Positions 19,475 through 62,087 of a DNA stretch of 64,000 bases are shown here, one piece after another (position 1 is the stretch's first letter; each line of letters starts with the position of its first letter). The stretch is from Rhizobium sp. Q54 (GTDB lineage Bacteria > Pseudomonadota > Alphaproteobacteria > ATCC43930 > CGMCC-115725). A model generated the notes under the pieces. That model saw only the letters and a program-made list of their open reading frames with translations, did not search any database and had not been told where the DNA came from. Made by a program: the position numbers and the translations under genes. The stretch spans positions 25,155 to 89,154 of the forward strand of contig CAMATN010000001.1 in NCBI GenBank assembly GCA_945861155.1. The letters run 5' to 3'.

Positions 19475-19578
19475 CAGTCCTAGTTACCCCTGTCATCCCG
19501 GCGAAAGCCGGGATCCATCGTGCTGCGGGCTCCGACAGCAGAAGAATGGAGGCGTGTCATGATCATGAGCTTGCTTCG

Positions 19579-29590: not shown

Positions 29591-29653
29591 TGTCATCCCG
29601 GCGAAAGCCGGGACCCATGTCCGCCATGGATACCGGCTTTCGCCGGTATGACA
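29591..29653. repeat. Palindromic element (family B) TGTCATCCCGGCGAAAGCCGGGACCCATG...CATGGATACCGGCTTTCGCCGGTATGACA
   Basis: Paired hairpin arms; same family at 19493, 34816, 56598, 61977. Confidence 0.9.
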
Positions 29654-33359: not shown

Positions 33360-34937
33360 CTATCGGCCGTTCCATGGCGAAAGTTTCGGCCCGGCATCGG
33401 CCGGTGGGAGCGGGCTGAAATTGAGCGGCGCGTCGCTTTCGATGCGCTCGCGGCTCGGCAGTTGCGCGGCGTTCCAGCCGCCGCCAAGCGCCTGGATCAG
33501 CGCGACCGCGGCCGACAGCCGGCTTTGCCGCACGCTGAGCGCCGCCTCGGCATTGCCGAGCGCCGCCGTCTGGGCGACGACGACATTGGTAAAAGCGACG
33601 GTGCCGGCGCGATACTGATTGAAGATGATGCGCTCGGCCTCGCGCGACGACGCCACCGCGCGGTCCTGCGCCGCCGCCTGCTCGGCCAGGATGCGCAGCG
33701 CGGCGAGTTGGTCCTCGACCTGCTGGAACCCGGTCAGCACGTTCTGGCGATAGCCGGCGACCGTTGCGTCGAACGCGGCGCGCGCCTGATCGACCTGGGC
33801 GTGACGGGCGCCGGCATCGAAGACGGTCTGGGAGAGGGTCGAGCCGAACGACCACAGCCGGCTCGACGCCGACAGCAGCCTGGCCAGTGTCGCCGCCATC
33901 ACGCCGGCATCGGCCGATAAAGCGACATCGGGGAAAAACGCCGTTTCGGCGACCCCGATCGTGGCGTTGGCGGCTGCCATCCGGCGCTCCGCCGCGGCGA
34001 TGTCCGGGCGCCGCTCCAGCAGGGTAGAGGGCAGCCCCGCGGGGATGTCGGGCAGGGGCGGCACGGTGGAGGCGGGCGCGATGGTCAGCTCGGCCGGAGC
34101 CTTGCCGATCAGCACGGCGATCGCGTGTTCGAGTTGGGCGCGCGACACGCCGACCGCGATGGCGCGGGCCTGCGTGCTGTCGAGCTGGGTGCGGGCCTGC
34201 GCCACGTCGGACGCCGCGGCGATGCCGGCATTGTACTGGTTCTGGCTGATGCGCAGCGACTCGCCATAGGCCTTGACCGCGGAGTCGAGCAGCCGCTTCA
34301 GCTCATCGGCGACGCGCAGCTGCAGGTAGGCGCCGGCGAGCTGGCCCTGCGCCGCGAGCCGCGCCCCGGCCAAATCGCCGGTGCTGGCTTGCGCGCTGGC
34401 GACATCGCTCTCGACGGTGCGCCGCACCCGGCCCCAGAGGTCCGGGACCCAGCTCGCAGATCCGGTAACGCTGAACGAATTGGCGATCGAACCGGAGCCG
34501 GGCGAGCGCGAGCGCTGGGCCGTTGCATTGACCTGCGCGGTCGGGAAAAACCCGGCGCGGGACTGCGCGACGATCGCCTCGGCCTGGCGGAACGCAGCCT
34601 CGGCGGCTTTAAGGTTCTGGTTCGAGATTTCGATCTGGCGCGCGAGGCCGTCGAGGACCGGATCGCGGAACACCGACCACCACGCGCCGCGGTCGATCGC
34701 GTCGGCCGGCCGCGCTTTCCGCCAGCCGGCTTCCTCCTTGTACGCGGCCGGGACCGCGACCTCCGGGCGCCGATAGTCCGGCCCAACCGTGCAGGCCGAA
34801 ATGAAGAACAACATTGTCATCCCGGCGAAAGCCGGGATCCATCGTTCGGCGCCCGGGACCTTGGCGGGGATGGGTCCCGGCCTTCGCCGGGATGACAGCC
34901 AAAAATGGCGCAGCGTTCGGGTCATCCCGGTGCTCAT
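33360..34937 (-). CDS. NodT/OprM-type efflux outer-membrane lipoprotein; 81-bp palindromic element inside the signal-peptide region
   Basis: ISACTVGPDYRRPEVAVPAAY; tandem OEP domains; ATGA overlap with the recG stop supports the 34937 start. Confidence 0.9.
   Translation of the reverse strand: MSTGMTRTLRHFWLSSRRRPGPIPAKVPGAERWIPAFAGMTMLFFISACTVGPDYRRPEVAVPAAYKEEAGWRKARPADAIDRGAWWSVFRDPVLDGLARQIEISNQNLKAAEAAFRQAEAIVAQSRAGFFPTAQVNATAQRSRSPGSGSIANSFSVTGSASWVPDLWGRVRRTVESDVASAQASTGDLAGARLAAQGQLAGAYLQLRVADELKRLLDSAVKAYGESLRISQNQYNAGIAAASDVAQARTQLDSTQARAIAVGVSRAQLEHAIAVLIGKAPAELTIAPASTVPPLPDIPAGLPSTLLERRPDIAAAERRMAAANATIGVAETAFFPDVALSADAGVMAATLARLLSASSRLWSFGSTLSQTVFDAGARHAQVDQARAAFDATVAGYRQNVLTGFQQVEDQLAALRILAEQAAAQDRAVASSREAERIIFNQYRAGTVAFTNVVVAQTAALGNAEAALSVRQSRLSAAVALIQALGGGWNAAQLPSRERIESDAPLNFSPLPPADAGPKLSPWNGR
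34816..34896. repeat. Palindromic element (family B), 81 bp, in-frame within the NodT-like gene
   Basis: GTCATCCCGGCGAAAGCCGGGATCC...GGGTCCCGGCCTTCGCCGGGATGAC. Confidence 0.92.
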
Positions 34938-37039
34938 CCGGCGCGCAGGTATTGCACCGCTTCGTCGCGGCGGAACAGGTACAGCAACAGGCGCAGCGCC
35001 TCGCCGCGCGGGCTCGTCAGTTGCGGATCGCGCTCCAGGATCAGGCGGGCATCGTCATGCGCGACCGCGACCAGTCCCTCGTGCTGCGCCAGATCGGCCA
35101 GACGCAGCGCCGGCAACCCGCTCTGCCGCGTGCCGAGCGCCTCGCCGCCGCCACGCAGCCGCAGATCCTCCTCGGCGATGCGGAACCCGTCCTCGGTTTC
35201 GCGCAGAATCGCCAGACGTTGGCGCGCGATGTCGCCAAGCGGCGACTGGTACAGCAGCAGGCAGGTCGATTGCCGGTCGCCGCGGCCGATGCGGCCGCGC
35301 AGCTGGTGCAATTGCGCCAGACCGAAGCGCTCGGCATGCTCGATGACCATGACCGTCGCCGCCGGCACGTCGATGCCGACCTCGATCACCGTCGTCGCGA
35401 CCAGCAGATCGACCGAGCCCCCGGCAAACTGCGCCATCGCGCGATCCTTGTCGGCGCCCTTCATCCGGCCATGCACGAGCCCGACCCGTCCCGGCAGCAT
35501 CTCGGAGAGCGCACGGTAGCGTTCCTCGGCGGCGGCGATGTCGGTGGTCTCCGACTCTTCGACCATCGGGCAGACCCAGAACAGTTTTGCCTCGTTGGAG
35601 CCGCCATTTCGGGCGAGCGCGCGCGCCACCGCCCCCGAAACCTCGTCAAAGCGATCGAGCGGCACCGCCCTGGTATCGACCGGTCGGCGCCCCGGCGGCT
35701 TTTCAACCAGGCGCGAGACGTCGAGATCGCCATAGGCGGTCATCATCAGCGTGCGCGGGATCGGGGTCGCGCTCATCAGCAGCGTGTCGCAATCCTGGCC
35801 CTTGGCCGTCAAGGCCAGCCGCTGCTCGACCCCGAAGCGATGCTGCTCGTCGATGACCGCGAGGCCGAGGTCGCGGAACGCAACATCCGGCTGCACCAGC
35901 GCGTGCGTGCCCACGACAACCGGGGTCAGCCCCGAGGCGAGGCTCGCCAGCATCGAATCGCGCGCGCGCCCCTTCTCGCGGCCGGTCAACAGGCCGATTT
36001 CGACCCCGGCCGGCGCGGCCAGGCGTTGCAGCACCTGGTGGTGCTGTCGCGCCAGCATTTCGGTCGGCGCCAGCAGCGCCGCCTGGGCGCCGCTCTCGAC
36101 CGCGATCAGCATCGCGACCAGCGCGACCACGGTCTTGCCGCTGCCGACATCGCCCTGCAACAGCCGCATCATCCGGCGCGGCGCCATCATGTCGCCGGCA
36201 ATCTCGGCGACCGCCTGGCGCTGGCTGCCGGTCAGCGCGAAGCCGAACTCAGCCTCCGCCCGGCTCTGCAACGCGCCGGTGCCGGCGAGGATGCGGCCGC
36301 GACGGCTGCGGCGGCGGGCGCGCACCAGCGCCACCGCGAGCTGGCTCGCCAGGATCTCGTCATAGGCCAGGCGCTCGCGCGCCGGGCTCGCGGGCGCCAG
36401 ATCGGCCTCGCTCTGGGGCGCGTGTGCGGCGGCGAGCGCCTCTCCCCATCCCGGCCAGCGCCGGCGCGCCCGCCATGCCGGGTCGAGCCATTCCGGGACC
36501 TCCGGCGCTCGCCCCAGCGCCGCCGCGACGGCCTTCGCCACGATGCGCGAGGAAAGCCCCGCGGTCAGCGGATAGACCGGCTCGATCGCCCGGACCTGGT
36601 CGGCCAGGTCGGGTGCGACGACGTGGTCGGGGTGGGCCATCTGCGGCGCCCCGCCGTAATACTCGACCCGGCCGCTGATGATCCGCTCGGCGCCGATCGG
36701 CAGCAGCCGCAACAGCTGCTCGCCCTTGACGTTGAAATAGACGAGGGTCAGCGTGCCGGTGCCGTCGCCGCACACGACGCGCGACGGGCGACGGCCAAAG
36801 CCGGGCTGGTGGCGCTCGACGGTGGCCTTGACGGTGACGATCGCATCGGGCCAGTCGCGCGGGTTGAGCGCACCGATCGGCGGCGCCGCGCGGCGGTCGA
36901 CGAGCCCCGCCGGCAGGTGCCACAACAGATCGACAACGAGCGGGCCGGCGGCTCGCTCGATCAACCGGCCGAGCTGCGGCCCGATGCCGGGCAGCACCGT
37001 CGCCGGCGCGAACAGCCTGTCGAGGAGAGCGGGACGCAT
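34934..37039 (-). CDS. recG: ATP-dependent DNA helicase RecG
   Basis: RLLQGDVGSGKTVVALVAML, VVGTHAL, VIDEQHRFGVEQR, LMSATPIPRTL, LRGRIGRGDRQSTCLLLY. Confidence 0.97.
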   Translation of the reverse strand: MRPALLDRLFAPATVLPGIGPQLGRLIERAAGPLVVDLLWHLPAGLVDRRAAPPIGALNPRDWPDAIVTVKATVERHQPGFGRRPSRVVCGDGTGTLTLVYFNVKGEQLLRLLPIGAERIISGRVEYYGGAPQMAHPDHVVAPDLADQVRAIEPVYPLTAGLSSRIVAKAVAAALGRAPEVPEWLDPAWRARRRWPGWGEALAAAHAPQSEADLAPASPARERLAYDEILASQLAVALVRARRRSRRGRILAGTGALQSRAEAEFGFALTGSQRQAVAEIAGDMMAPRRMMRLLQGDVGSGKTVVALVAMLIAVESGAQAALLAPTEMLARQHHQVLQRLAAPAGVEIGLLTGREKGRARDSMLASLASGLTPVVVGTHALVQPDVAFRDLGLAVIDEQHRFGVEQRLALTAKGQDCDTLLMSATPIPRTLMMTAYGDLDVSRLVEKPPGRRPVDTRAVPLDRFDEVSGAVARALARNGGSNEAKLFWVCPMVEESETTDIAAAEERYRALSEMLPGRVGLVHGRMKGADKDRAMAQFAGGSVDLLVATTVIEVGIDVPAATVMVIEHAERFGLAQLHQLRGRIGRGDRQSTCLLLYQSPLGDIARQRLAILRETEDGFRIAEEDLRLRGGGEALGTRQSGLPALRLADLAQHEGLVAVAHDDARLILERDPQLTSPRGEALRLLLYLFRRDEAVQYLRAG

Positions 37040-37405: not shown

Positions 37406-37409
<4 letters not shown>
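37110..37409 (+). CDS. sdhE: Succinate dehydrogenase assembly factor SdhE (DUF339)
   Basis: IRRKRMLFRSWHRGTREADLILGSFAEAYL...LLACPDADLFDWITRR. Confidence 0.93.
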
Positions 37410-41152
<3,743 letters not shown>

Positions 41153-56597: not shown

Positions 56598-56688
56598 GTC
56601 GTCCCGTGGGCCTTCAGCCCACGGACTTGATCCGTGGGGAAGGCCGGGACCCATTTTTGCCATGGATACCGGCCTTCGCCGGTATGAC
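56598..56688. repeat. Palindromic element (family B, extended)
   Basis: GTCGTCCCGTGGGCC...CCACGGACTTGATCCGTGGGGAAGGCCGGGACCC...GGATACCGGCCTTCGCCGGTATGAC. Confidence 0.85.
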
Positions 56689-56738
56689 AGGAAAGTAGAA
56701 GCATAGTGCTTTATTGATAAGCGTCATCCTCAGAGCTT

Positions 56739-61934: not shown

Positions 61935-61976
61935 GCCCGGCGCGGTTCCGGCAGTCGTCAGAAGCCAAATTTATTT

Positions 61977-62056
61977 GTCATCCCGGCGAAGGCCGGGACC
62001 CATTCATCCGCACCCGAGACGGTTGACGAGTGGGTCCCGGCCTTCGCCGGGGTGAC
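61977..62056. repeat. Palindromic element (family B)
   Basis: GTCATCCCGGCGAAGGCCGGGACCCATTC...GAGTGGGTCCCGGCCTTCGCCGGGGTGAC. Confidence 0.9.
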
Positions 62057-62087
62057 GGTTTTTTTAGCAAAGACGGGAAACAAGCCA

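Follow-up and report, generated by a model that had tools for sequence, protein, structure and literature searches.

The nodT gene of Rhizobium sp. Q54 carries, within the codons for its predicted lipoprotein signal peptide, a head-head dimer of CGTC-type REP units that lies in frame with the gene; as judged from the sequence, its translation within the NodT export signal is almost certain. The dimer (TGTC...GACA, 83 bp) occupies positions 34815 to 34897 of the window, the 64,000-nucleotide stretch of DNA that we analysed, has no strand of its own, and was delimited by profile matches, by its hairpin and by conservation of its boundaries. We regard it as a well-supported further example of a kind already known from CGTC REPs inside genes and from the palindromic elements of Rickettsia.

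The host gene, on the minus strand at 33360..34937, encodes an RND efflux outer-membrane lipoprotein (Pfam PF02321 and TIGR01845, the latter at 408 bits against a cut-off of 210). As the initial annotation had read it, the open reading frame of this NodT-type gene begins at 34937 with an ATG that overlaps the stop codon of recG (34934..37039, minus strand) in an ATGA. In the direction of transcription the ATGA is followed by 36 nt, then by TGTCATCCCGGC...GCCGGGATGACA, and then by ATGTTGTTCTTCATTTCGGCCTGC, and the frame, open throughout, reads MSTGMTRTLRHFWL-SSRRRPGPIPAKVPGAERWIPAFAGMT-MLFFISAC. Two ATGs precede the element, at 34937 and 34925, and the second is preferred as the putative start, being the one most like those of the sister genes. 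From this ATG simple sequence rules (n-region charge, h-region, lipobox Cys) predict a lipoprotein (SPase II) signal at 34791..34925 on the minus strand (MTRTLRHFWL...ISAC), in which 44 residues precede the Cys and the REP core supplies 27 of these. The first REP unit contributes SSRRRPG, an arginine-rich piece of an n-region whose charge is +6, and the second contributes WIPAFAGMT, which together with MLFFISA makes up an uncharged tract of 16 residues (WIPAFAGMTMLFFISA) ending in the lipobox ISAC. The earlier claims that the repeat is in frame in a lipoprotein signal and that WIPAFAGMT belongs to the hydrophobic stretch thus agree with what we found. The pattern of substitution indicates that mature NodT is under constraint (dN/dS of about 0.09 relative to sister species G006, with dS near saturation).

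REPs at the N-termini of annotated proteins often turn out to be start-site misannotations, as the survey of Di Nocera et al. (2013; PMC3733652) warns, and it was reasonable to ask whether nodT is such a case. The element would then be effectively extragenic, an ordinary intergenic REP after recG, with nodT starting at the ATGs on its 3' edge (GGG ATG ACA ATG TTG). REPs do commonly sit just past stop codons, both in the window genome and in that survey, and the equivalent ATG at the end of an element in genome G054, a member of a different family of the class, gives a good signal (MTKRGAYAALLIGLLSSC). Against this, the only in-frame starts below the element (ATG ACA ATG TTG) would leave the window gene with at most MTMLFFISAC, 9 residues without a positive charge before the Cys, and neither G006 nor G005 has a start beyond its REP unit that yields a signal. 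A start 3' of the element with an independent signal, the alternative that the initial annotation had named, was therefore not found. Because no downstream start would give a working signal, we infer that NodT is translated through the REP, and it would then be exported and processed; for the same reason the warning about misannotated starts is answered here, and we consider an extragenic REP distinctly unlikely.

The palindromic repeat described in the initial annotation (GTC...GAC, 34816-34896) is present as stated, and the palindrome is far beyond chance: the element with its near flanks folds at -62.1 kcal/mol, where shuffled versions average -37.7 (z -7.3; 0 of 200 shuffles as good). Its length of "exactly 81 bp" holds for this core, which amounts to 27 codons. 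Given that the outer base next to GTC is T at 91% of element ends (n=90), however, the full element is TGTC...GACA, with the TGTC tag at both ends and a length of 83 bp. Excision of 81 bp preserves the nodT frame whereas excision of 83 bp breaks it, so that the 27-codon reading depends on the insertion site and presupposes that a T and an A stood at that site beforehand, as would fit an insertion into TA. In nodT reading order the first unit, at 34871..34897 on the minus strand (TGTC-ATCCCGGC-GAAG-GCCGGGAC-CCA), encodes (L)SSRRRPGP and has one terminal stem mismatch, in GCCGGGAC. The second, inverted unit, at 34815..34841 (TGTC-ATCCCGGC-GAAA-GCCGGGAT-CCA on the plus strand), is an exact match to the consensus, with an 8-bp stem from AT and a 4-nt loop (ATCCCGGC/GAAR/GCCGGGAT). 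A CCA tail follows the stem in both, and the two units score 36.2 and 27.8 bits with the REP profile. Rfam gave no match in the nodT region that reached curated thresholds, and matches below threshold were taken as chance hairpin matches.

That the repeat belongs to a family dispersed through the genome, as had been proposed, is borne out by the 79 matches, on both strands, that the nodT element finds in its own genome, and by 109 units in 62 elements, 45 of them head-head pairs, in an 886-kb sample that was partly picked for containing elements. The unit consensus in the window genome is (T/C)GTC-ATCCCGGC-GAAR-GCCGGGAT-CCA. Among 105 units aligned from the tag end the GTC is invariant, which is to be read in light of their selection for starting with NGTC; it is preceded by T in 93 and by C in 9, and the final A of the CCA tail is present in 104. 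This is the anatomy of the CGTC-1 REPs of Di Nocera et al. (CGTC/TGTC tag, 8-bp stem from AT, 4-nt loop, CCA tail, head-head dimers), and it dominates the REPs of the window genome. The likeness extends to the alphaproteobacterial host, in which class CGTC REPs are common, to placement near gene 3' ends, to in-gene copies encoding 20-30 residues, and to the lack of a linked tyrosine transposase (PMC3733652). The search for a transposase was for the Y1 type, and no gene matching PF01797 (Y1_Tnp/RAYT) was found in the window genome; matches in the genus are few. The nodT case differs from that survey in that misannotation of the start can be argued against and in that sister species have one unit at the matching junction.

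We also considered the element as a classical, transposon-type MITE. No abutting direct repeat accompanies 34 of the 45 dimers if the boundary is set at T, or 42 of the 45 if it is set at G, and nearly all of those in the remaining dimers are just 1-2 nt long; target duplication is not seen, and we discarded the MITE in favor of the REP dimer. Further CGTC-1 units or dimers occur in the window at 19491-19517, 29591-29653 (a 63-bp type of dimer), 56663-56689 and 61976-62057, and in the genome sample CGTC-1 coexists with another type of REP, whose stem is longer and whose loop has 5 nt (CGTCATGGCCGGGCTTGTCCCGGCCATCCA).

The location of the nodT element calls for no targeting of signal peptides. 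In the window genome sample the median distance between a REP and the flanking gene's 3' end is 36.5 nt, and the distance from recG to the nodT element is 36 nt. We consider it likely that the REP settled in its usual place and is read through from the upstream ATG. A head-head dimer would have settled a few dozen bases beyond the upstream gene's stop; because nodT begins on that stop (ATGA), this position falls among the codons of its signal peptide; a frame-preserving length would have survived, and translation from the upstream ATG would pass through the REP. The preference for gene ends together with the ATGA overlap thus suffices to explain the location. Among the 62 sampled elements, some of whose read-through frames were inspected individually, only the nodT copy is clearly inside a gene, and a general preference of REPs for insertion in genes of the window genome was accordingly set aside for the 886 kb. 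Two further candidates were rejected: the element at L208, where GTG starts exist downstream, and an apparent mid-gene copy at L241, in an antisense frame that looks spurious.

The relatives place the element in a phylogenetic setting. The orthologs of nodT that we examined begin in the manner of lipoproteins, with a Cys as the first mature residue, and the gene upstream of most of them ends like an acrB-type RND pump. G006 and G005 are the sister species closest to the window species. In G006 the protein begins MTHKRT-SSRQRPGP-AALRLAVPAGLGLFLGAC and in G005 MTTYNL-SSRRKPA-RALLQLGTLLVGAC, the middle piece being in each case the product of one REP unit, a single counterpart of the first unit of the nodT element. 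Both units lie at the acrB-nodT junction, 12 nt past the acrB stop, and share the frame of the window element. The G006 unit is identical to the window arm at 23 of 25 positions, a level reached by 12 of 2000 random genome stretches, best explained as real REP elements, while all others scored 19 or less; the first 16 bases of the G005 unit (TGTCGTCCCGGCGAAA) exactly match a REP variant that is common locally. The HMM scores of the two units are modest (8.8 and 7.7 bits, against 10.4, 9.1 and 8.8 for the best of 2000 shuffled regions), and since a few shuffles match or exceed them it is position, frame and exact matches, taken together, that carry the case. The window genome groups with the pair of G005 and G006 with support of 99.8/100 for NodT and AcrB combined and 97.6/96 for AcrB alone; the tree of NodT alone leaves G005 unresolved. 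At the acrB-nodT junction of the other family members tested no REP was found (best score 2.3 bits). Most orthologs lack the element, and in none from a REP-free species was the 27-residue segment present, an occurrence that the initial annotation had named as counting against an insertion.

In these sister species the REP codons add positive charge to the predicted signal. With them the n-region has a net charge of +4 in G005 and +5 in G006, and without them +1 and +3, so that most of the positive charge of the G005 signal comes from the unit. The pairing of the palindrome has decayed in both, while the frame and the charged residues have been kept. This also bears on whether the element might be retained as an RNA or DNA device, an mRNA hairpin tuning nodT relative to recG or a recombination site, with its translation incidental. 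A very stable hairpin does lie 28 nt past the 34925 ATG, and nodT has been relocated by an apparent reciprocal exchange nearby. There is, however, no T-run for an intrinsic terminator, Rfam offers no match at its curated thresholds, the reciprocal junction is without a REP, and in G005 and G006 it is the pairing that was lost and the coding features that stayed. We consider a role of this kind unlikely.

The history of the element is less simple than its frame. The initial annotation had derived it from an element-free gene, and the reconstructed empty site (MTRTLRHFWLMLFFISAC) matches no ortholog examined and also needs the element to be 81 bp, not 83 bp; that proposal is possible but found no support among the orthologs. 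Deletion does leave a plausible signal, as had been claimed, but so would the deletion of almost any insert lying in frame between n- and h-region, which makes it weak evidence, and we set aside the argument that deduced domestication from the joined flanks. Domestication as signal-peptide sequence is best supported by G005 and G006, in which the remaining unit supplies positive residues of the n-region and may have been adopted; the window dimer, which is near consensus and looks younger than the species split, may simply be tolerated.

Its youthful look argues against a single, undisturbed old insertion. Synonymous divergence between the window genome and G006 is roughly 0.7-1.7, near saturation, yet the second unit of the window dimer is the exact consensus, and the closest copy to the element lies in its own genome (0.88), whereas a single imperfect unit is what decay has left in the sister species. 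Recurrent insertion or replacement at the acrB-nodT junction, which would make this a REP hot spot and give the young dimer an origin separate from the G005 and G006 units, is therefore a serious alternative and quite possibly correct, if somewhat short of an even chance. It is favored by a REP dimer at the same junction of G054 (27.0 and 18.5 bits), which is independent of that of the window clade. The restriction of the element to one clade and the common frame speak for shared descent instead, as does the AT...GGGAC arm common to the window genome and G006, although this type of arm is not rare: C stands at that place in 35 of the 105 units, and we rejected the common arm as proof of descent. 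The site may have been hit or refreshed again, or the copy may have been kept by conversion or selection. Recurrence concerns history only and is compatible with translation through the element, which we continue to prefer. In G054 itself (L030/L097) nodT is not in frame with the ATGA-type start, and the open reading frame seems to begin anew within the element or at its end.

The recG neighborhood of nodT is itself new. The initial annotation, made from the sequence alone, had missed this relocation. Among relatives with a readable recG end none has nodT after recG, and no nodT lies behind the orthologous acrB of the window genome (contig C25; L207/L168). The sequence that follows this acrB resembles the post-recG sequence of G003 (73% over 104 bp, from the last codons of recG), and the arrangement is best read as a move of nodT from acrB to recG by reciprocal exchange of downstream neighbors. 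A chimeric assembly, joining recG to nodT through the repeat and creating an artificial N-terminus, came into consideration with a draft genome of 226 contigs in which REPs are repeats and with a recG-nodT join found in no relative. Yet the reciprocal join of acrB to post-recG sequence exists, starts from the last recG codons and is free of REPs, the recG-nodT join lies about 36 nt away from the repeat, and the frame is open throughout; we consider an assembly artefact very unlikely. As no REP was found at the reciprocal junction, REP-mediated exchange was also rejected as the cause of the move. Downstream of acrB (L168, contig C25, about 28.5 kb) a coding repeat rich in Tyr, Ser and Gly (YYYAYENVSGDQYWGYVYADSSYGYYDGYY...) occurs in at least two almost identical copies.

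Palindromic repeats inside protein genes have precedents. The Rickettsia palindromic elements (Ogata et al. 2000, 2002, as cited in PMC3733652 and PMC10969869) are likewise in-frame palindromic repeats that the protein tolerates, and two of their families, RPE-4 and RPE-6, correspond to CGTC REPs (PMC3733652). They sit at various sites of mature proteins and many are longer, at about 150 bp (PMC10969869), whereas the nodT dimer lies in a signal peptide that is predicted to be cleaved. The REPINs and RAYTs of Pseudomonas (PMC3116915) share with our element the pair of inverted REP units as the basic dispersed form, and differ in their GTAG tag; the window genome is without a Y1_Tnp/RAYT match. 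Elsewhere in the window, Mfd (37406-41152, plus strand) contains a 47-residue in-frame insert (GVPEDNPHPNPPPLAGEGA...SPASGGGQGGGRP, 38510-38650) that is absent from the Mfd of congener G002. Its DNA is a palindrome of a different repeat family (arms 38528-38562 and 38609-38643, 86% complementary). Mfd is a repair gene, and REPs have been noted inside several repair genes (PMC3733652).

The interest of the nodT case lies in the evidence from sister species and in the simple rule that it suggests, namely that where a REP stands beside a stop codon and the next gene begins in an ATGA overlap, the REP should fall in the signal peptide of that gene, a rule that can be tested. It is conceivable, though rather doubtful at present, that REPs at ATGA junctions repeatedly supply the signal peptide of the exported protein downstream, some pieces then being kept by selection after the palindrome has decayed; with the same reserve, the pieces so given might include arginine-rich n-regions, hydrophobic stretches and, as in G054, even start codons. 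REPs at N-termini are usually dismissed as wrong starts, and here phylogeny and sequence favor one that is coding, pointing to a possible route by which selfish palindromes may enter signal peptides, where exported proteins are permissive.
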